A stretch of 64,000 nt of DNA. Origin: Chryseobacterium turcicum (GTDB taxonomy: Bacteria; Bacteroidota; Bacteroidia; Flavobacteriales; Weeksellaceae). The notes beneath the pieces are model-generated. The model saw only the letters and a program-made list of their open reading frames with translations, searched no databases and had not been told where the DNA came from. Both the position numbers and the translations under genes were made by a program. Below, in pieces: positions 37,750-47,037 of this stretch (positions are counted from its first letter, which is position 1; each line of letters begins with the position of its first letter). Location: positions 2,832,001 through 2,896,000 of the forward strand of contig NZ_JAJNAY010000001.1 of assembly GCF_021010565.1 (NCBI RefSeq), written 5' to 3'.

Positions 37750-37985
37750 GGAAAAAGGTCAGGTACAATAATTTTCCACAACCTAGTTGAAGTACATGAA
37801 ATCACATGATAAGAGATTAAATATTACAGTAATTAAATACCACACGAAAATTTATTAATCATCTTTCAATATATTAATTTGCAATTCAGTAATAATACTG
37901 ATTTATTTTAAAAAAAATCATATTAATATTGGTTTTTTAATAAAGTATCAACTTAATTAAATCTAACCAAATCACAAACTAAACC

Positions 37986-38891
37986 ATGTTATCAAAAGTA
38001 AATCATTTTTTTGACGCATTCTTTTCTCCTGATAAAACAGTAATACGTCTAAGAATATTAATTGGTATTACCGCTTTCATGCTACCCATAAGTTTAATTA
38101 GTTCGTCTTGCTTTTTTGACCTCGAAATTCAACCATCAATAAGTCATTATAATTTCACCAATTTTAGAGAAATCTTTACTGGATGCTTAATGGCAATAGG
38201 CTTTTTTATGCTCTGTTATAAAGTTCCTAGTAAAAACAAAATAGAACAAATACTATCTACCTTAGCCGGTATTTTTGCTATTTTGATTGCTTTTTTCCCT
38301 ACTACTCCTGTAAATACAGTCAATTCGTTACAGATAAATGAAAATTATAATCAAGCAGTACAAAAATTGATAACTAAACAACAGATGATGGTTGATTGTT
38401 ATGGAAGCAATGAATGCGTCGAAGATTCTCTTAAAAAAATATATAAAACTAAAATTGCATTTCCTAAAGAAAAAACTCCTTCTAAAATATATGTAGATTA
38501 TTCACAATACACATTAAATGGATCATTCGTAAAAATGGACAATTCTAATGATTCTTTTACAAAAGGATATTATAATAAATTCAATGCAACAATTCATACT
38601 GCATCAGCATTTATATTATTTTCAATATTAGGAATATTATCACTCTTTATTTTTCCTTCAAAATCTTGTAAGAGATACAAATTTTGGTATAGGCTTTTTG
38701 GGGCATTAATTTTCTTATCAATTATTGTATTATTTGTTGATTTTTTAATGAATAAATACAACCCCAACAAAACTAACATTGTCCTTTGGTGTGAAGTAGT
38801 AATGTTGTTTTCATTTGGTGCTTCCTGGTTGCTAAAAGCAAGAGAAGATTACATAATGTTTAAAAATTTGAAAAGAAACAATTTAGAATAA
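37986..38891 (+). CDS. Multi-pass membrane protein of the catalase-LodA locus, unknown function
   Basis: 301 residues. Hydrophobic segments at about 22-40, 63-80, 88-105, 207-226, 236-254 and 262-278 suggest six TMs, with a polar loop of ~100 residues (108-205) that contains 'DCYGSNECVED', a Cys pair likely to face the periplasm. No family recognised. It lies 85 bp upstream of the c-heme lipoprotein gene on the same strand and starts the apparent operon, so a role in electron transfer or in delivery/regulation of the oxidase is possible but not shown. Confidence 0.6.
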   Translation: MLSKVNHFFDAFFSPDKTVIRLRILIGITAFMLPISLISSSCFFDLEIQPSISHYNFTNFREIFTGCLMAIGFFMLCYKVPSKNKIEQILSTLAGIFAILIAFFPTTPVNTVNSLQINENYNQAVQKLITKQQMMVDCYGSNECVEDSLKKIYKTKIAFPKEKTPSKIYVDYSQYTLNGSFVKMDNSNDSFTKGYYNKFNATIHTASAFILFSILGILSLFIFPSKSCKRYKFWYRLFGALIFLSIIVLFVDFLMNKYNPNKTNIVLWCEVVMLFSFGASWLLKAREDYIMFKNLKRNNLE

Positions 38892-38976
38892 AATGGGATT
38901 TGTAAAATAGTGCAATCTTTTTTTTATAATCACCTAAAAACTCAAAAAAAAACAATAACCAATAACCTAAATAACC

Positions 38977-40515
38977 ATGAAACTAAAATTAAAAAAACTG
39001 ATGCTTTTGAGCATTACAACAGCTACTTTACTGGGGCTTACATCTTGTAAAAAAGAGACTTACTCTACAACTAAAACAAGCTTAGCAAGTATTTTTGAAG
39101 ATTACAATAAGAATAACGAAATTAAAAATACAGTTGATACCATAGTTCTTGACAATGACCAAATGTTTGTTGACTGGTCTTGGCAAAAATTTTTATGGTT
39201 AACGTCAAATTCCGAAGATAATGTTCCTGTATTTATGAAAGAATTAAAACAGGTTAATGATTTTGGTGAAGAAATAAAAATAAATGCTTTAAAAACGAAA
39301 GGATTACCATCTTCATACATAAAAGATGGCAAATTACCATTAATCTTAGATTTGTATCAACAAGCAGACGGAACAAAATTAAGTAGCAAGAGCAATTCTC
39401 TCGTAAGATATTCGATACATGCTAATGACGGAATATTAGAGATGTTTAATTCAGCCGATGCATCATCAATTATTAGCCAAGCAGCTGAAATACTAAAAAA
39501 TGACAGCTTAAAGCGTTCTATTCGTGAGAGTAAAAATCAATATCCAGTGGGTGCTACCGAAATTAAAATAGCTTGGATAAAAACATCCGAAGTAGTAGAT
39601 TCTACTAAAACTTTTAATATAACTGCGATTGTTAATAAACCTAATGAAAATTTGGACGAAAATTATAATAACGCTGAGCTGCAAAGAATGTCTATGATTG
39701 GCTTTCATATATTTACAGTTACAGCAGAGCACCCTGAAGGCGTGTGGTCAACTTTTGATCAACAAGATTTAGCACCAGATAGAACAAGTTTTCATGGAGA
39801 CCCTGTAAATTCTAAATCAGATAAATACACATTATTCGATGGAGGCTCTGTTGGAAATACAGCAGATGGAATTATTCAAGATAAAACCACTCTTACTCCA
39901 AAAGTTAAAAATAAAGTATTTCAATCCTATCCTGAAGGAGTTAGATACAATCAGGCATCTCAAGGAATGGACGTTATTAAAGAAGATAAAGAGTTTGCTA
40001 CAATGATTAAATCTAGTAACGAATTAGCTAAAAAATCCCTTACGAATGATAAAGTTAAAATATGGGCGAACTATAAATTTGTCGGCTCTATATGGTCAAA
40101 AACGAATGCTCCAATTAATGAGTTGCTCGATGGAGATTTATCAAAACCATATGGTACCGGTAATGGGCAAAGTTTTGGTAGTTTAAATTTAGCAAATGTC
40201 ACTATGGAAACCACATTCCAAGCAGAAGGAATGAATTGTTTTACTTGTCACTCTATGAATAATAATTTATATAGGACAAATGGATCAAAAAAAATAAATG
40301 TTAAGTCTCCTTTAATTAGCTCACACTTATTTGAAAAATACGCAGAATTAAAAGCAGCATTATTAGCAAGTCAAGGAACAGCCAAAACTGACATTAATAA
40401 AGAATTGAATACTAGTACAATAAAATCTTCTAATAATATAGATGAAATTAATAAGTTAAAGAATAGCATAAGGGAATCATCTCGTGAAGAAGCTAGAGAA
40501 TTACTTAAAAAGTAG
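38977..40515 (+). CDS. c-type heme lipoprotein
   Basis: 512 residues. A lipobox signal 'LLGLTSC' puts the acylated Cys at 24. A single heme-c attachment motif occurs late: 'MNCFTCHSMNN' with Cys421, Cys424 and His425. The preceding 400 residues include 'DQMFVDWSWQKFLWLT' and 'GFHIFTVTAEHPEGVWSTFD', a conserved-looking beta domain that I cannot name, plus 'EGMNCF' entering the heme site. It resembles cytochrome-c-like lipoproteins found next to LodA-type oxidases. The next gene encodes the catalase-LodA fusion. It may take electrons from, or supply them to, that system in the periplasm. Function is inference, the heme motif is seen. Confidence 0.7.
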   Translation: MKLKLKKLMLLSITTATLLGLTSCKKETYSTTKTSLASIFEDYNKNNEIKNTVDTIVLDNDQMFVDWSWQKFLWLTSNSEDNVPVFMKELKQVNDFGEEIKINALKTKGLPSSYIKDGKLPLILDLYQQADGTKLSSKSNSLVRYSIHANDGILEMFNSADASSIISQAAEILKNDSLKRSIRESKNQYPVGATEIKIAWIKTSEVVDSTKTFNITAIVNKPNENLDENYNNAELQRMSMIGFHIFTVTAEHPEGVWSTFDQQDLAPDRTSFHGDPVNSKSDKYTLFDGGSVGNTADGIIQDKTTLTPKVKNKVFQSYPEGVRYNQASQGMDVIKEDKEFATMIKSSNELAKKSLTNDKVKIWANYKFVGSIWSKTNAPINELLDGDLSKPYGTGNGQSFGSLNLANVTMETTFQAEGMNCFTCHSMNNNLYRTNGSKKINVKSPLISSHLFEKYAELKAALLASQGTAKTDINKELNTSTIKSSNNIDEINKLKNSIRESSREEARELLKK

Positions 40516-40529
40516 TTATAATACCCTCA

Positions 40530-40612
40530 AAATACTGGATCGATATCTAATTTTAAAAATATTTACTTTAAACAAGTCCAAAAAAATAAAATACAAATTC
40601 GATCCAGTATTT
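40530..40612. repeat. 14-bp inverted repeats 55 bp apart (MITE-like or mRNA stem)
   Basis: AAATACTGGATCGA (40530-40543) is the exact complement of TCGATCCAGTATTT (40599-40612). The unit is 83 bp and lies in the 162-bp gap between the c-heme lipoprotein gene and the catalase-LodA gene. No target-site duplication is evident. It could be a long stem-loop that separates expression of the two genes, or a small mobile remnant. Confidence 0.65.
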
Positions 40613-40677
40613 AAGACAAAAATAGCTCTACAAAAACCATTATGAGTTAAATAACAAATTAATTAAAACTAATAAAA

Positions 40678-43600
40678 ATGGAAAAAAAATACATATCCGA
40701 TCTTAAAGCTCAGTTCATAGATACTTACCAAAAAGTTATGATAGAAAATGGTGCACATCCAGCACCAAGGGCCGTATTCAGAAAACAACATGGTGTAGTA
40801 CATGGTGAATTAAGTTTATCCAATAACTTACCCATTGAAAAACTAGTAGGTGATCTTGGTTTCTTTGGCATTAAAGATAATTTCAAGTGTGTAATGCGTT
40901 TTTCAAGTGATACAGCTCCTAAAAAAACAGATGTAAAATCTACCATTGGTGTAGGTTTAAAGATTTTTGATTTACCGAATAATGCTGAAGGATTTGATGG
41001 GCCAAATACAGATTTTATATTTCAAAATATTGATATGTTTTTCGCTCAAAACGCACAACAAATGGTAGATTTCACTCAAATTTCAGGTTCTGGTGATATC
41101 AACCAACTAAATGAATATTATAGAGAAAACAAAGAATTGAAACGTATTTTAGACCAAATGGAAAAATACGAAGACAGTTGTTTAACCACTACATACTATC
41201 CTATCATACCATTCCGATTAGGTGAAAAACATATGATCAAACTACGACTTAAACCAGTAGTTAAAGAAAATTTCCCTGTCATCATGAAGCAGAAAGATTA
41301 TCTCGCTAAAGATTTACAGCAAAAATTATCTAATGATTCTTACCAATTTATTCTTGAAGGGCAAATTAAAGAGCTTGATGAAAAAATAGCAGATAATTTA
41401 CAATTAAAATGGGATGAAAGTTTTATTGAAATTGGTAGATTAAACCTCCCCAAACAAGATTTGAATCTGATTGGAGTGAAAGAACTTGGTGATCATATTA
41501 ATTTTAATTGCTGGCGTATCAATTCATTAAATCAACCTCTGGGTAGTATTGCTGAGGCTAGAAGAGATGTTTACAAATATGGTGCAGAAACGAGATACAG
41601 TGCCAATGCTTTAGAGTTCAGAGAACCTCAAAAACAAGTTTGCCCTTTTCATGCACAAAATAAGGATGAAAAAATAGTTGACCACGAAATTGTGAGTGCG
41701 GCAATATATCCTTCAATAGGCATTATGCGTGTAGGAAATAGTGATGAGTATTATATAGGACCACAAGTTCCGGAACCTATACTATCAAATGATCTTTCTT
41801 TTTATAGGGATAGAGAAGGCAAAATCAAAAGACAAGCAGCAGAATTTAGAATATATGGTCTGAATATTAAAGGAGAAGTTGTAAAGGAACTTACCCATCC
41901 TGATATTAAAGACAAAGTTGAAATCAGCTGGTCGTGCCATTTAGCTAACCAAAAAGCAGCTTGGTATCAATTTAATCTTGCATTAGATATTCCGGAAGCA
42001 AATGAAGATGAATATAAATTTTCATTTAAAAGAAATTCAGATGTCCCGGATCGTATGAGCCTCGTTATTGATGGAGGTATAAAAATTATCAATAGCAAAT
42101 CGATCAGCAAATCAGCAATATTTAAAGGTAAATTTTTAAAAAACAACGAAGTTTATCTTGGAGAAATATTTTTCGATAAGAATTCACCAAATTCCAAAAG
42201 ATTGCATGTACTTGGAGGTAAAGGTATATCTAAAAGTTCTAAAAATGAAATTGCCTTAGATTTTGCAAATAATGATGATTGGTATGATGACACTTCTGAT
42301 GGACCGGTAACAGCCATTGTAAAATTCAATAATAAGGAAATTAATGTAAAACCTGCTTGGGTAATTTGTGCACCTCCAGATTATGCTCCTGTGCAGCAAT
42401 CGGTAAGAACAATGTGGGATTTAATGAGAGATCTATCTGTAAGAGAACTCAACTTACCTGCTCCCATTAGCCCTTCATTTTCTTATGATATATTTCCCAT
42501 CTTTAAGAGAATGACAGAACTACAATGGGTAAACAAAGGTTTTTTAACCACTTTTGGGTTCAATGGAGCTTATAATTTCAATGAAAATATATGGATTGAA
42601 AAATTAAGAGATGGAACGATGAATAACTTAGAATTCAGAAGACAAATGTTTAATCAGTTCAGACAGTTTGATCTCCCGGGTTCTCAATCTCCGGCTTTAT
42701 GGCCTTGGTTATATGGAGATGCTATAGAGATAGTAGGAAACGGAAGCCCTAGGCAGCATAGTACACTTACAGATCTGCAAATCAAAATGTTGCAGCAATG
42801 GGTAGATGGTAATTTTATTGATGATTGGGATAAATATAAAACCAATTATATTAATCCTAAACCTTTAGATGAATATCCTGTAGAAGAGCAAGCCGACTTA
42901 CTTACAAGAGCTGCTTTAGATTTTTGTCTGGCAGATGCTTTTCATCCGGGTTGCGAAATGACGTGGCCGGTAAGAATATCTTCTATGTATGATTCTCCTT
43001 TCAGATTTAACTTTGATAAAGATAATCTTATTAAAGACAACCTTGATTACGGTCCTTTTATAGATCAAACGTTACTTAATAAAATAATTAACCCTTTCGA
43101 ATCTCAAGTTGCAGGCGGTATAACACGCTGGATGGCTATTCCCTGGCAAACAGATACAGCCTCTTGTAAAGATGGATACGACACTTCATATGACCCTTAT
43201 ATTCCAACATTTTGGCCAGCACGAGTGCCTAATGAAATTATTACTTACAAGCAATTCAAAGCTTTACAAGAAAAACAAGGAAATCCAGAAGAGCAATTAG
43301 AAATACTAAATCAACGTTTTGAGTGGTTAGAAGATTTACCTGGTAACCCCACCATTTATTCTCCATATCAAGAGATTATTAATAAAATGATTACTCATTT
43401 TGATTCTGTAGGCACAGTGCTACCTATAAAATTAGATGAAACAATTACGAATAATGAGAATACTAAAGTTCCTAATACTGTGCAGGTTGCCTTAACCAGT
43501 TCATACACTAAAATTATCAATATCATTTTAAAAGAAACCAGACAAAAGCAGATAATAGATAATCTCGGAAAAGATAAGGTACTTAAAATAATATCAGATA

Positions 43601-43800
43601 ATGTATTAAATTCTTCTAAATTACAAATTGACGAAGAAGTAAAAAAAGAAGCGGAGCACATATTAAATAACTCAGAAGCATTAGAAAATCTACTGTCAAA
43701 AGTTCAGGAAACAAATAAAGATTTACAAATAGAATATGTTAAACCAAATCAGAAAATAGTAACTATTCATGAAAGATTTAGAAGACGTTTTAATTCCTAA
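40678..43800 (+). CDS. Heme-catalase-like domain fused to LodA-like CTQ quinoprotein oxidase
   Basis: 1040 residues. Residues 1-315 are catalase-superfamily: distal 'FRKQHG' (Arg35, His38), distal Asn117 in 'FQNIDMFFAQN', and the proximal R-x3-Y-x6-R pattern (Arg295, Tyr299, Arg306) in 'ARRDVYKYGAETRY'. From ~335 a LodA-like L-amino-acid oxidase begins ('VSAAIYPSIGIMRVGNSDEY') and continues past 'IPTFWPARVPN' (~842-852). Candidate cysteine tryptophylquinone residues are Cys750 ('LDFCLADAFHPG') and Trp823 ('IPWQTDTASC'), 73 apart (65 in Marinomonas LodA). A charged helical tail of ~140 residues ends the protein. LodA enzymes oxidise an amine and release H2O2 and NH3, so the chain can both make and potentially consume peroxide. 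No signal peptide. The LodB-like gene follows after 2 bp. Confidence 0.85.
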   Translation: MEKKYISDLKAQFIDTYQKVMIENGAHPAPRAVFRKQHGVVHGELSLSNNLPIEKLVGDLGFFGIKDNFKCVMRFSSDTAPKKTDVKSTIGVGLKIFDLPNNAEGFDGPNTDFIFQNIDMFFAQNAQQMVDFTQISGSGDINQLNEYYRENKELKRILDQMEKYEDSCLTTTYYPIIPFRLGEKHMIKLRLKPVVKENFPVIMKQKDYLAKDLQQKLSNDSYQFILEGQIKELDEKIADNLQLKWDESFIEIGRLNLPKQDLNLIGVKELGDHINFNCWRINSLNQPLGSIAEARRDVYKYGAETRYSANALEFREPQKQVCPFHAQNKDEKIVDHEIVSAAIYPSIGIMRVGNSDEYYIGPQVPEPILSNDLSFYRDREGKIKRQAAEFRIYGLNIKGEVVKELTHPDIKDKVEISWSCHLANQKAAWYQFNLALDIPEANEDEYKFSFKRNSDVPDRMSLVIDGGIKIINSKSISKSAIFKGKFLKNNEVYLGEIFFDKNSPNSKRLHVLGGKGISKSSKNEIALDFANNDDWYDDTSDGPVTAIVKFNNKEINVKPAWVICAPPDYAPVQQSVRTMWDLMRDLSVRELNLPAPISPSFSYDIFPIFKRMTELQWVNKGFLTTFGFNGAYNFNENIWIEKLRDGTMNNLEFRRQMFNQFRQFDLPGSQSPALWPWLYGDAIEIVGNGSPRQHSTLTDLQIKMLQQWVDGNFIDDWDKYKTNYINPKPLDEYPVEEQADLLTRAALDFCLADAFHPGCEMTWPVRISSMYDSPFRFNFDKDNLIKDNLDYGPFIDQTLLNKIINPFESQVAGGITRWMAIPWQTDTASCKDGYDTSYDPYIPTFWPARVPNEIITYKQFKALQEKQGNPEEQLEILNQRFEWLEDLPGNPTIYSPYQEIINKMITHFDSVGTVLPIKLDETITNNENTKVPNTVQVALTSSYTKIINIILKETRQKQIIDNLGKDKVLKIISDNVLNSSKLQIDEEVKKEAEHILNNSEALENLLSKVQETNKDLQIEYVKPNQKIVTIHERFRRRFNS

Positions 43801-43802
43801 TA

Positions 43803-44924
43803 ATGAATAACGATTTTGACATTATAATTATTGGAGGAGGCATAGCAGGGTGTATCGCTGCTATGCACCTCCATCCTTTTTACAAAATTTTAGTCATTGA
43901 AAAACCAGAAAACACAAATGTTTTACATGGGGAAACTTTAGTGGCATCCAGTAAACGTATTTTTAGTGAACTAGATATTGATATTGATGCAATAATGCAA
44001 GAGTCATTGGTGGGCAAACCTACCATTGGGATGCAATCATATTGGGGAACCCCTCATCCTATCATACAAGATAGCATACAAAATCCTGAAGGTCATGGCT
44101 GGTCTATCGATAAGAATAATTTTGTATATGAATTACAAAAAATAACAAGTGAGCGAGGTATTAAAATCATTAGAGAAAATATTATTAGTATTGTAGAAGA
44201 GTCTCAACAATGGGCTTTGATTACAAAGACAAAGGAGGGTTTTGAAAAAAATTATCAAGCCAAATTTATCATAGATGCTTCAGGACGCAGAAGTTTGATG
44301 GCTCAAAAAATGAGCATTAAGAGCCTCAAAAAAGATCAGCTTATCGGGATTCATGGAAGCATATCCATTCCTACTTTAAAAGAACTTTCTACAATCTATG
44401 CTGTTGAAAATGGATGGTGGTATATTACTAAACTACCTAATAATAAACATTTGATTAGTTTCTTTACAGATTCCGATTTATGCGATAAAAAGTTGACCAA
44501 AGATGGAGAATTTTTTAAAAATTATTTTTTAGCTGAAAAAGATTTAATTAAAATTTTAGAAATTAAAGAAGAAATATTAGAGTATGAATTTTTAGGTACA
44601 AAAGCATCACATTCGTCCTATCTTAAACTTCCAATACAATCAAATTGGATAGCAATTGGAGATGCATGTTTAACCTTTGATCCATTATCCTCTCAAGGAA
44701 TATTTAATGCTTTAGCAATGGCTGCTCAATACTCTAAATTAATCATTAAATCGAATGTAGTTCATACCTTATCAGAAAACATTAAAAATGCATTTATAGC
44801 AGAATGCAATCGTATTGCCGAAAATATTTGGTCTCATTACGAATATCATCATTACATCTATTACAAGATGGAGAAAAGATGGCCAAACCAATTATTTTGG
44901 AATAGACGTCATGATATTAAATAA
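43803..44924 (+). CDS. LodB-like FAD-dependent oxidoreductase (CTQ maturation)
   Basis: 373 residues. An N-terminal dinucleotide-binding fold 'DIIIIGGGIAGCIAAMHLHP' (GxGxxG, residues ~6-25), the mid-chain 'FIIDASGRRS' typical of the group, and the FAD pyrophosphate motif 'WIAIGDACLTFDPLSSQG' (residues ~280-297). This is the tryptophan-halogenase/geranylgeranyl-reductase-like flavoprotein class to which LodB belongs. LodB is required to form the cysteine tryptophylquinone of LodA. The start codon lies 2 bp after the LodA-like stop, so the pair is coupled, supporting a maturase role for this gene. Confidence 0.85.
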   Translation: MNNDFDIIIIGGGIAGCIAAMHLHPFYKILVIEKPENTNVLHGETLVASSKRIFSELDIDIDAIMQESLVGKPTIGMQSYWGTPHPIIQDSIQNPEGHGWSIDKNNFVYELQKITSERGIKIIRENIISIVEESQQWALITKTKEGFEKNYQAKFIIDASGRRSLMAQKMSIKSLKKDQLIGIHGSISIPTLKELSTIYAVENGWWYITKLPNNKHLISFFTDSDLCDKKLTKDGEFFKNYFLAEKDLIKILEIKEEILEYEFLGTKASHSSYLKLPIQSNWIAIGDACLTFDPLSSQGIFNALAMAAQYSKLIIKSNVVHTLSENIKNAFIAECNRIAENIWSHYEYHHYIYYKMEKRWPNQLFWNRRHDIK

Positions 44925-45111: not shown

Positions 45112-45118
45112 CTTAGAG

Positions 45119-45192
45119 TGACTTCGGCAGGGTTCGAACCTGCAACCAACGGAGCCGAAATCCGTCATTCTATCCAGTTGAACTACGAAGCC
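45119..45192 (-). tRNA. tRNA-Arg (anticodon TCG)
   Basis: Read on the minus strand: acceptor GGCTTCG/CGAAGTC (one G-T pair), D-arm region 'TAGTTCAACTGGATAGA', anticodon stem ACGGA/TCCGT with loop TTTCGGC (anticodon TCG at 34-36), T-arm 'GCAGGTTCGAACCCTGC', discriminator A. 74 nt; CCA is not encoded. It would read CGA/CGN arginine codons. Flanked by a terminator. Confidence 0.93.
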
Positions 45193-45267: not shown

Positions 45268-47037
45268 TTAGAATGTAATCTTAATCCCTCCTACAACCTG
45301 CGCACCAAGAACTTTATAGCCTTTGTACGTTTGGTATTTTGAGCTTAGAAGATTGTTTCCGAGTGCAAAAATACTGAAATTTTTGTGAATTTTATACTCT
45401 GCAGATAAGTTTAAATCTGCGTAACCACCAACTTTATCATTGGTATCTTCAGTTGATTGGAATACCATCGACGGACTTCCCACGCCTTCAAGCATATACG
45501 AATTCGTCGTTCTGTCTGTGGCAAAAATTCCTTTGAAACCTAAAGACATTTTTTTCTCAAACATCGTATATTTTGCACCAATACTTCCTGTAACCAAAGG
45601 CACATTATAGATATTTTCGTAATTTTTTAAATCATATTTCAAAAATCGCACATCAGCATCTAAAACTAGATTTTCTAATGGGAAATACTGTAGACTACCT
45701 TTAATGTCGCTCACATTTCCGTCATCATAAATTGCTGAAAATGTATTGGCAAAATCGTAACCGGGTCTGTCTAAAGTAAATTCATTTGAGAAAAGATTGT
45801 TGCCTTTAAAAAACATAATATTTTTCATTTTTCCGAATCCGGCAGAAACATCATATTTAAAAGTTTCGTCGATATCTCCTCTTAAACCTGCGTAAAAATG
45901 ATACTGTGTTTCAGTAGGTCTTAACATCTGATCTGAAACCAAGAATGGGTTTTCTTGTAACAACTCAGCATACGTATTTAGTTTTAAACCACCGTCAACT
46001 CCACCGTAGAATTTAAATTCTTTAGAAGCAGCCACCTGAAATTCAGCCTGTGGAAACCAATAGGTTTTGTTATTTTTTAATTCTTCAGCTAAAATCAAAT
46101 TAGAATTTCTTGCATTTAAAAAATTAAATGAAGAACCCAACATTAAGTAAGACTCACCTTTTGCAAAAGTTACTTTCGGCGCTAAGCTAGCATTAAAAAA
46201 AGTTGCCGAATTTTTGTCTCTGATTGCAAAATCTGTTTTTACAGTTTCTAAACCAACACCCAAATCTGCATTCATTACAATTCCGTTATCTGAAAGCTTT
46301 ACGGCGTGCTTTGAAAGGTTTGCCAAGATGGAAGCCTGATTTTCTTTTGCATCAAAATGATCGCTTAAAAATGAAGATTTTACCCTTACATCATTCAAAA
46401 TTTCATTCGAATAAAAATCATAGTAACCGTTTACTTTAAACTGATTTACTTTCTGTTGCAAATCAACACCCGCAGAAGGATTTACAGCATAAATACCATA
46501 ATAATTATAGTTATTTAAGCCATATTCTGCATTCACATTAATCTTTCCTTTTTCTCCATAAGAATTTAAGAAAGCTCCTAATGTTGCTGAACTTTGCTTA
46601 GAATCCCAAGGATACACTTTTTTTAGTCCGTTGGTAGATAAAACATGTACATCTGCTCCTACTTCCAATTTATTTTCAAGGGTTGTAGAAATATTGGCAT
46701 CCGCTAAAATCTTCCCATAATTCCCCATTCCGAGTTGGAAATAATTATTTTGAGCCGTACCATCAAACTTTGGAGTAACATCTTGCCCCTGAATAGTAGA
46801 CGTTTTAAAATCTGATACCGCAGGAACATCCGTAATCGTGTATTTTACAGGATTGGCAGACTTTTCTTCAGGCGGATAATTTTTTTCCGTAACGACAGAA
46901 GTTTTTTTCTTTTCAATCTTCTTTACTTCCGGTTCTCTTTTTTTGTTAAGAATCAGCTTTTCTTCTTTGATCTGAGAAAACGCCACAGACGAAAATCCCA
47001 GAAATAATATAGATAATATTTGAATTCTTTTGTTCAT
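45268..47037 (-). CDS. Outer-membrane beta-barrel protein (TonB-dependent-receptor-like)
   Basis: 589 residues with a signal peptide ('ILSILFLGFSSVAFSQ'). A Lys/Glu-rich linker (~25-65) is followed by a strand-rich region starting 'NNYFQLGMGNYGKILADANI' and continuing to the C-terminal 'VVGGIKITF', a terminal Phe after alternating hydrophobics as in BAM-inserted barrels. 'YADLNLSAEYKIHKNFSIFA' and 'GNNLLSSKYQTYKGY' are typical of the last strands of TonB-dependent receptors. A full plug domain is not evident and the protein is short for the family, so it may be a plug-less relative. It lies 87 bp downstream of a long TPR gene on the same strand, a pairing common in Flavobacteriia. Confidence 0.75.
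   Translation of the reverse strand: MNKRIQILSILFLGFSSVAFSQIKEEKLILNKKREPEVKKIEKKKTSVVTEKNYPPEEKSANPVKYTITDVPAVSDFKTSTIQGQDVTPKFDGTAQNNYFQLGMGNYGKILADANISTTLENKLEVGADVHVLSTNGLKKVYPWDSKQSSATLGAFLNSYGEKGKINVNAEYGLNNYNYYGIYAVNPSAGVDLQQKVNQFKVNGYYDFYSNEILNDVRVKSSFLSDHFDAKENQASILANLSKHAVKLSDNGIVMNADLGVGLETVKTDFAIRDKNSATFFNASLAPKVTFAKGESYLMLGSSFNFLNARNSNLILAEELKNNKTYWFPQAEFQVAASKEFKFYGGVDGGLKLNTYAELLQENPFLVSDQMLRPTETQYHFYAGLRGDIDETFKYDVSAGFGKMKNIMFFKGNNLFSNEFTLDRPGYDFANTFSAIYDDGNVSDIKGSLQYFPLENLVLDADVRFLKYDLKNYENIYNVPLVTGSIGAKYTMFEKKMSLGFKGIFATDRTTNSYMLEGVGSPSMVFQSTEDTNDKVGGYADLNLSAEYKIHKNFSIFALGNNLLSSKYQTYKGYKVLGAQVVGGIKITF

Follow-up and report, generated by a model that had tools for sequence, protein, structure and literature searches.

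A catalase-fold domain with phenylalanine at the distal histidine position, joined to a predicted cysteine tryptophylquinone oxidase in Chryseobacterium turcicum

We analyzed a stretch of 64,000 nucleotides (the window; positions 2,832,001 to 2,896,000 of contig NZ_JAJNAY010000001.1, assembly GCF_021010565.1) from Chryseobacterium turcicum, in which a single gene joins an N-terminal catalase-fold domain to a LodA-type oxidase that is predicted to carry a cysteine tryptophylquinone (CTQ) cofactor. The locus, with its features numbered along the window, is given in Table 1. An earlier interpretation made from the DNA letters alone (the sequence-only reading) had placed a LodA-like domain behind a catalase-type domain and a LodB-like flavoprotein 2 bp downstream. 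Both proposals were borne out. The 1040-residue open reading frame matches LodA_N and LodA_C, its first part matches catalases in profile comparison, and its LodA-type oxidase region extends from residue 344 to about residue 915; the gap from its stop codon to the start codon of the LodB/GoxB/QhpG-like gene is 2 bp. On the same strand, a gene for a c-heme lipoprotein precedes the fusion gene at a distance of 162 bp, and an inverted repeat lies in the gap.

Table 1. Features of the Chryseobacterium turcicum locus, in window coordinates (aa, amino acids; FAD, flavin adenine dinucleotide)
Feature	Position	Strand	Basis
Leader segment ahead of the opening gene of the run	37764..37953	+	About 180 bp common to related loci (BLAST)
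DUF998-like predicted membrane protein, 301 aa, probably accessory	37986..38891	+	Pfam DUF998, E 8.9e-7
c-heme lipoprotein, 512 aa	38977..40515	+	Lipobox Cys24; CFTCH at 421-425 (translation)
Inverted repeat in the gap between the lipoprotein gene and lodA; may be a terminator or attenuator	40530..40612	+	26-nt arms, 81% complementary
Catalase-fold/LodA-type CTQ oxidase fusion gene, 1040 aa	40678..43800	+	
Catalase-fold heme domain, residues 1-317 (1-335 at widest)	40678..41628	+	Profile match to solved catalases
Phe34, position of the catalase distal His	40777..40779	+	Alignments
His38, in a conserved HG motif, 4 residues past Phe34	40789..40791	+	
Asn117, distal Asn of the catalase fold	41026..41028	+	Asn in 26/26 fused genes
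Proximal motif R295-x3-Y299-x6-R306, predicted heme Tyr ligand	41560..41595	+	
LodA_N domain, residues 344-564	41707..42369	+	PF17990, E 3.6e-69
LodA_C domain, residues 688-846	42739..43215	+	PF18417, E 2.8e-37
Asp826 and Cys830 (predicted CTQ cysteine)	43153..43167	+	Invariant in 18/18 LodA domains
Trp846 (predicted CTQ tryptophan)	43213..43215	+	Invariant in 18/18 LodA domains
LodB-like FAD flavoprotein, 373 aa, predicted CTQ maturase	43803..44924	+	NCBIfam matches

Fusions of this kind are already on record. Campillo-Brocal et al. listed 21 catalase–LodA fusions in 2015 as LodA group III (PMC4417212, Table 3), with the same domain order and size as the window protein. By architecture the window protein matches this group, as its catalase-fold domain lies N-terminal to LodA in one chain and LodB adjoins. 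A protein of Azospirillum sp. B510 (1004 amino acids, 42% identity over 89% to the window fusion) agrees in strain and length with entry AZL_e04100 of that table, and the window protein groups with this strain in our LodA tree, which holds no group labels of PMC4417212. The parts of that paper that were consulted make no mention of the distal histidine or of a c-heme neighbor. Our literature searches found no report of a missing distal histidine, of a c-heme neighbor, or of Chryseobacterium together with "CTQ-dependent." The earlier remark that no characterized example was known fits this literature, with the qualification that the fusion itself has been in print since 2015.

The fold of the divergent N-terminal domain was assigned by profile comparison. 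The window protein has no match to Pfam Catalase, the Pfam test for a monofunctional heme catalase. Among 12 aligned heme domains (11 fused and one stand-alone), six match that family, with a best E-value of 5.7e-6. A 12-homologue profile matches solved catalases, with 82 sequences at E up to 1, the best of them 3e4w (E 4.4e-11) and 1dgf among them at E 5.4e-9, and a profile built from fused domains only also finds 14 such sequences at E up to 0.001. These matches agree with the catalase-type N-terminal fold proposed earlier. The domain is 25–26% identical to stand-alone proteins annotated as "catalase family," a type whose y4iL/cd08152 label is taken from PMC4417212. These proteins and 3e4w are about 320–380 residues long and share with the window domain the catalase fold and the tyrosine ligand motif; however, those aligned here and 3e4w keep the distal histidine, whereas the fused domains have phenylalanine. 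The same genome also encodes, elsewhere, a conventional catalase and a stand-alone protein related to the heme domain. The same kind of catalase-fold domain is paired with other enzymes in Rhizobium phaseoli (L146) and Ruegeria conchae (L147), where a "peroxidase family" gene either contains it or follows it directly.

The sequence-only reading named His38, Asn117, and R-x3-Y299-x6-R as catalase residues. Asn117 and the proximal motif are present as described and are conserved throughout the fused family, but the distal position falls on Phe34 and not on His38. In the profile alignments, the R-V-V-H of 4qol, 1dgf, and near-identical chains and the R-A-L-H of 3e4w are aligned with R31-A32-V33-F34, although the piece of the 1dgf alignment that covers these residues scores only 5.3 bits. 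Three MAFFT modes likewise align Phe34 with the distal histidine in both of the genome's other catalase-fold proteins, the catalase and the stand-alone relative, and set His38 against serine and tyrosine there. Eight relatives that are not fused to LodA all have histidine at position 34; six of the eight have histidine at position 38 and six have asparagine at position 117, while R295, Y299, and R306 are kept in every one. Compared to monofunctional heme catalases, the window domain shares the distal asparagine and the proximal motif but, by alignment, not the distal histidine. His38 was therefore rejected as the distal histidine by alignment, not by structure.

Phe34 is constant across the fused genes compared. 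The signature R31, V33, F34, H38, G39, R74, S76, N117, F121, F122, R295, Y299, and R306 is identical in all of the 26 distinct fused genes compared, one locus each, which come from Chryseobacterium (10), other Bacteroidota (9), alphaproteobacteria (6), and one IMG/VR contig; three of them (L006, L054, and L155) are frameshifted or broken and were read in pieces. Only Azospirillum B510 is certainly common to this set and the 21 fusions of the 2015 table, whose entries from Acinetobacter, Ralstonia, Streptomyces, and others lie outside it, as does Azospirillum lipoferum 4B. Since the domain has a constant Phe34, retains Tyr299 together with the heme-contact arginines, and is under purifying selection (see below), it probably binds heme without being an ordinary catalase.

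A different account is that the domain scavenges peroxide in cis: it would still work as a catalase or peroxidase, if a weaker one, with His38 serving as the distal base from its shifted position, and would shield the quinone enzyme and the cell from their own H2O2. Such a function would be of obvious use in a domain fused to a peroxide maker, and it is consistent with the retention of Asn117, Ser76, the FF pair, and the proximal residues and with the invariance of His38 across the fused family. However, we consider it doubtful. The canonical histidine is kept in every one of the unfused relatives while position 38 is not always histidine, and the genome holds a normal catalase. His128 is the distal histidine of the catalase HPII. 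The distal histidine is called essential in catalase, and an inactive HPII variant, H128N, is mentioned, in PMC9687031.

The second part of the fusion belongs to the LodA family, with 233.5 bits for LodA_N (curated Pfam cut-off 26.3) and 128.2 bits for LodA_C (cut-off 25). It shares with LodA (L-lysine 6-oxidase) and GoxA (glycine oxidase) these two domains, the Asp, Cys, and Trp of the CTQ site, and a LodB/GoxB-like partner. Compared to these two enzymes, it carries an extra N-terminal heme domain and scores under both NCBIfam equivalog cut-offs (GoxA, 381 bits against 750; LodA, 157 bits against 600), so that neither LodA nor GoxA specificity can be assumed. The adjoining flavoprotein is also under all equivalog cut-offs (LodB, 215 bits against 400; GoxB, 175; QhpG, 131), and its assignment as LodB/GoxB/QhpG-like, a predicted maturase beside lodA, holds at the family level. 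The gamma-subunit of quinohemoprotein amine dehydrogenase gave a sub-threshold stretch only (E 0.037, 14.5 bits against 25).

For the CTQ site, Cys750 and Trp823 had been offered as candidates; an alignment of 18 LodA domains (eight fused and 10 unfused) gives Cys830 and Trp846 instead. Asp826, Cys830, and Trp846 are invariant, and Cys830 is the only invariant cysteine, while some other tryptophans, including Trp823, are invariant as well. Trp846 aligns with the second tryptophan of the SWW of GoxA. Trp697 of GoxA presumably belongs to its CTQ. The stretch with Asp826 and Cys830 aligns around position 678 of GoxA (chain 6vmv, the aspartate counted along the alignment), and a conserved aspartate near the GoxA cofactor is numbered Asp678 (PMC7876137). 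In LodA, the CTQ residues are C516 and W581 (PMC4417212). The pair Cys750/Trp823 was rejected: Cys750 is not invariant, and Trp823, seven residues before Cys830, is unsuitable because the tryptophan of LodA comes after its cysteine. Cys830 and Trp846 are thus the predicted CTQ residues.

The heme and LodA domains are both under purifying selection. Against six orthologues, dN/dS is 0.07–0.14 for the heme domain, 0.09–0.17 for the LodA part, and 0.17–0.32 for the C-terminal tail; for lodB it is 0.13–0.21 against five orthologues. It is accordingly unlikely that the heme domain is a structural relic without catalysis that serves only the folding, oligomerization, or export of the oxidase. The phenylalanine at the distal position and the one relative without a heme domain (L056) would suit such a role, but the heme-contact residues are kept in fusions of very distant hosts, and the selection on the domain is strong.

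In a tree of the heme domain, eight fused copies group in a single clade apart from three stand-alone proteins (support 98/99). The eight fused rows of the LodA tree do not form one clade, the unfused protein of Rhizobium jaguaris (L056) standing among them, and a tree in which they were forced together was rejected (approximately unbiased test, p-AU 2.45e-08). A single fusion with later loss would suit the two trees, short of proof. The tree program flagged long branches (L130, L074 and its neighbor, and L145) and odd letter composition in three rows, including that of the window.

The sequence-only reading had called for a survey of the fusion across genomes, and it is this survey that yielded the fused genes of Bacteroidota, alphaproteobacteria, and IMG/VR counted above. 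Five loci encode fusions 90–94% identical to that of the window, all in Chryseobacterium. LodA_N occurs in 22 of 320 genomes of the family, all in the genus of the window; judged by frame length and by the loci opened, nine of the 22 hold 10 fused genes and 13 hold unfused genes only. LodA_N matches were found in 17/395 genomes of an order sample and 10/395 of a phylum sample, the two samples overlapping. Among plasmid records, 99 match some part of the fusion protein and six match at least 80% of its length. The IMG/VR contig (L135), classed as viral, carries a 989-residue catalase–LodA fusion and a LodB-like frame and may be host DNA; in a phage collection, a distant catalase was found in two Acinetobacter phage records only.

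The c-heme lipoprotein has a lipobox (LTSC, read by eye) and one CFTCH motif. A family alignment, reduced from 14 rows to 10 sequences by leaving out L071:5013-6608, L004, L067, and L082, shows no variation at C421, C424, H425, K197, and W200. L071:5013-6608 was rejected as a relative, being an FAD protein. Identity with cytochrome P460 was too weak to keep: that domain appears below threshold in two relatives (L075, E 8.1e-4; L082, E 0.14), and the window protein is unmatched. All 10 Chryseobacterium fusions have the lipoprotein gene 5′ of them, and it comes in two diverged types (identity about 93% or about 28%). The L068 copy is broken, and that of L071 is separated from the fusion by a flavoprotein gene. 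Among frames of at least 90 amino acids in some 5–6 kb on each side, no CxxCH gene was found beside any of the five other Bacteroidota fusions opened (of nine) or beside three alphaproteobacterial fusions. Four unfused lodA loci of the genus that were opened have no such lipoprotein as neighbor, and by gene positions, with different contigs counted as apart, none of the 13 genomes with unfused lodA only has the lipoprotein beside it.

Relatives of the lipoprotein gene nevertheless recur at other lodA genes. In Pseudoalteromonas xiamenensis and Xanthomonas sacchari they directly precede an unfused lodA, and in G504 (L066) one adjoins a lodA-like gene; at least two of 22 plasmid records with the lipoprotein family have a relative adjoining lodA, and in two more, from Bradyrhizobium barranii, the two genes are about 15 kb apart (one record was opened). 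Close copies without adjoining lodA occur in six Chryseobacterium genomes, a relative in Azospirillum ramasamyi lies near a glucose–methanol–choline (GMC) oxidoreductase, and a SagB-type dehydrogenase is another neighbor. The lipoprotein is thus a recurrent but optional partner of lodA. Its proposed place in an operon with the fusion is favored by the common strand and disfavored by the gap, the inverted repeat, and the lipoprotein genes found without adjoining lodA. Coupling of the two products, also proposed earlier, is favored by the constant neighborhood in Chryseobacterium, but no such gene turned up beside the five other Bacteroidota fusions opened, and the lipoprotein bears an export signal while the fusion showed none on inspection by eye. 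Direct coupling is no more than possible, since the lipoprotein also occurs without lodA and fusions occur without the lipoprotein. An electron relay, in which the CTQ domain would act as a dehydrogenase and pass electrons through the heme domain to the lipoprotein with little H2O2 formed (cf. quinohemoprotein amine dehydrogenase), is improbable, as the c-heme genes next to the Chryseobacterium fusions, the unfused lodA of P. xiamenensis and X. sacchari, the lodA-like gene of G504, and the GMC oxidoreductase of A. ramasamyi are set against the eight fusions without a CxxCH gene, the unequal export signals, and the six genomes with close copies apart from lodA.

Three further observations concern this lipoprotein family. 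First, between the window and eight orthologues (L069, L070, L127, L129, L116, L117, L118, and L120) the lipoprotein gene has a dS of 0.05–0.09 and a dN/dS of 0.32–0.47, while lodA and lodB beside it in four of those genomes have a dS of 0.16–0.30; the low dS may reflect a different history or codon constraint. Second, a diverged c-heme protein of 459–466 residues adjoins a protein of 577–579 residues in L123, L124, and L126, and the latter protein of L123, which was scanned, has no Pfam match. Third, a Bradyrhizobium barranii plasmid (L136, 114000–140000) carries a c-heme relative together with genes for a ferritin-like protein, a radical S-adenosylmethionine protein, and a halogenase-like flavoprotein, lodA, and a lodB-like gene, a combination that recalls the gene sets for quinohemoprotein maturation.

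The c-heme/lodA/lodB block is sharply bounded, and in most of the genomes compared it is flanked by different genes. Among the upstream genes are a tyrosinase and a PpoB2-like chaperone in L069, a berberine bridge enzyme (BBE)-like flavoprotein in L071, and an oxidoreductase and a cupin in L129 and, by DNA identity, also in L068. Tyrosinase and multicopper oxidase genes stand beside some lodA genes (PMC4417212), and one case of such an oxidase gene beside lodA was met here too. Segments that precede the c-heme gene in L002, L004, and L116–L120 resemble the window leader (79–83% identity where BLAST joins them), a segment of L115 also aligns with this leader, and the window genome has one full copy of it. 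In L005, L068, L069, L070, and L071, a leader of about 220–330 bp is common to different first genes (oxidoreductase, tyrosinase, or c-heme), as if oxidase genes had been swapped behind one leader.

Other elements of the locus are less constant. The predicted membrane protein at the head of the run scores 29.2 bits for DUF998 against a Pfam cut-off of 30 and has no homologue in the 23 + 17 related loci compared. The intergenic inverted repeat is recognizable in six aligned window-type relatives, with one arm altered in L127 and L128, and L003 and L067 have a different hairpin, read by eye, at the same place; a mobile repeat was rejected, as the genome has a single site with this pattern. A tRNA-Arg gene (45118–45192) lies just 3′ of the gene run. 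A tRNA-linked island was rejected as a general rule: 16 of 20 other loci scanned are without any tRNA, and in the remaining four none adjoins lodB. Beside the tRNA gene, a protein of 589 amino acids (45268–47037, minus strand) has no Pfam match at E 0.1.

Two known systems also pair a catalase fold with another enzyme. Coral allene oxide synthase–lipoxygenase (1u5u, 3dy5) also has a catalase fold fused to an enzyme domain, the profile match of 1u5u being weak (E 8e-5). The coral partner is a lipoxygenase, which makes peroxide, while that in the window is a LodA-type oxidase, and the coral allene oxide synthase domain keeps its distal histidine. Fungal EasC (9jdb), another weak match to the heme-domain family (E 2.2e-5), is of catalase type and is reported to complete an oxidative cyclization after its oxidase partner (PMC11375781). 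EasC is a separate protein and its partner is a BBE-like flavoprotein, whereas the window heme domain shares one chain with its oxidase.

Collectively, the domain anatomy, residue conservation, gene neighborhood, and selection described above suggest an amine or amino-acid CTQ oxidase that carries in cis a heme domain other than a working catalase, a reading to which we give a probability of about one half. The CTQ of Cys830 and Trp846 would be built with the help of the adjoining LodB-like flavoprotein, and the CTQ domain would oxidize a primary amine or amino acid with release of NH3 and H2O2. The N-terminal domain would bind heme through Tyr299 and, because Phe34 occupies the position of the essential distal histidine, would not dismutate H2O2 at catalase rates. 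Our guess is that it instead performs a slower and different heme reaction in cis, for which it would either consume the H2O2 or take what the CTQ domain produces as its substrate. Within Chryseobacterium, the pair would belong to a movable block of genes, together with the exported c-heme lipoprotein and further oxidoreductases that vary. Sequence supports well the earlier view of a CTQ-type oxidase and a heme-type domain joined in one chain, beside a LodB-like partner. The suggestion that this chain generates and destroys peroxide is weakened by the phenylalanine found in every fused gene compared, while the other proposal made there, use of the peroxide in the manner of a peroxygenase, may hold (see below).

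Several points weigh against an oxidase with a non-catalase heme domain. First, the structure prediction proposed by the sequence-only reading was run, but the models (mean pLDDT, the predicted local distance difference test, of 33 from a single sequence and 39 from eight) are too poor to place Phe34 and His38 and could not be used. Second, His38, likewise invariant, may have taken over as distal base. Third, heme binding and the CTQ are predictions from sequence, and the sequence names no substrate. Fourth, the oxidase appears able to do without the heme domain, because the unfused L056 sits inside the fused rows.

A more specific possibility, rather speculative at present, is that the fixed change from distal histidine to phenylalanine has turned a catalase fold into a non-catalase catalyst, for example a peroxygenase that would use the neighboring H2O2 on the CTQ product or a third substrate. 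If true, CTQ and a Tyr-ligated heme would make a two-cofactor enzyme in one chain. The pairing of a catalase-like domain with a CTQ oxidase has been on record since 2015 and is unexplained. The presence of phenylalanine at the distal histidine position in every fusion examined sharpens what was a vague question about a built-in scavenger into a more definite one: what role a catalase fold plays, without the catalase histidine, beside a source of peroxide.

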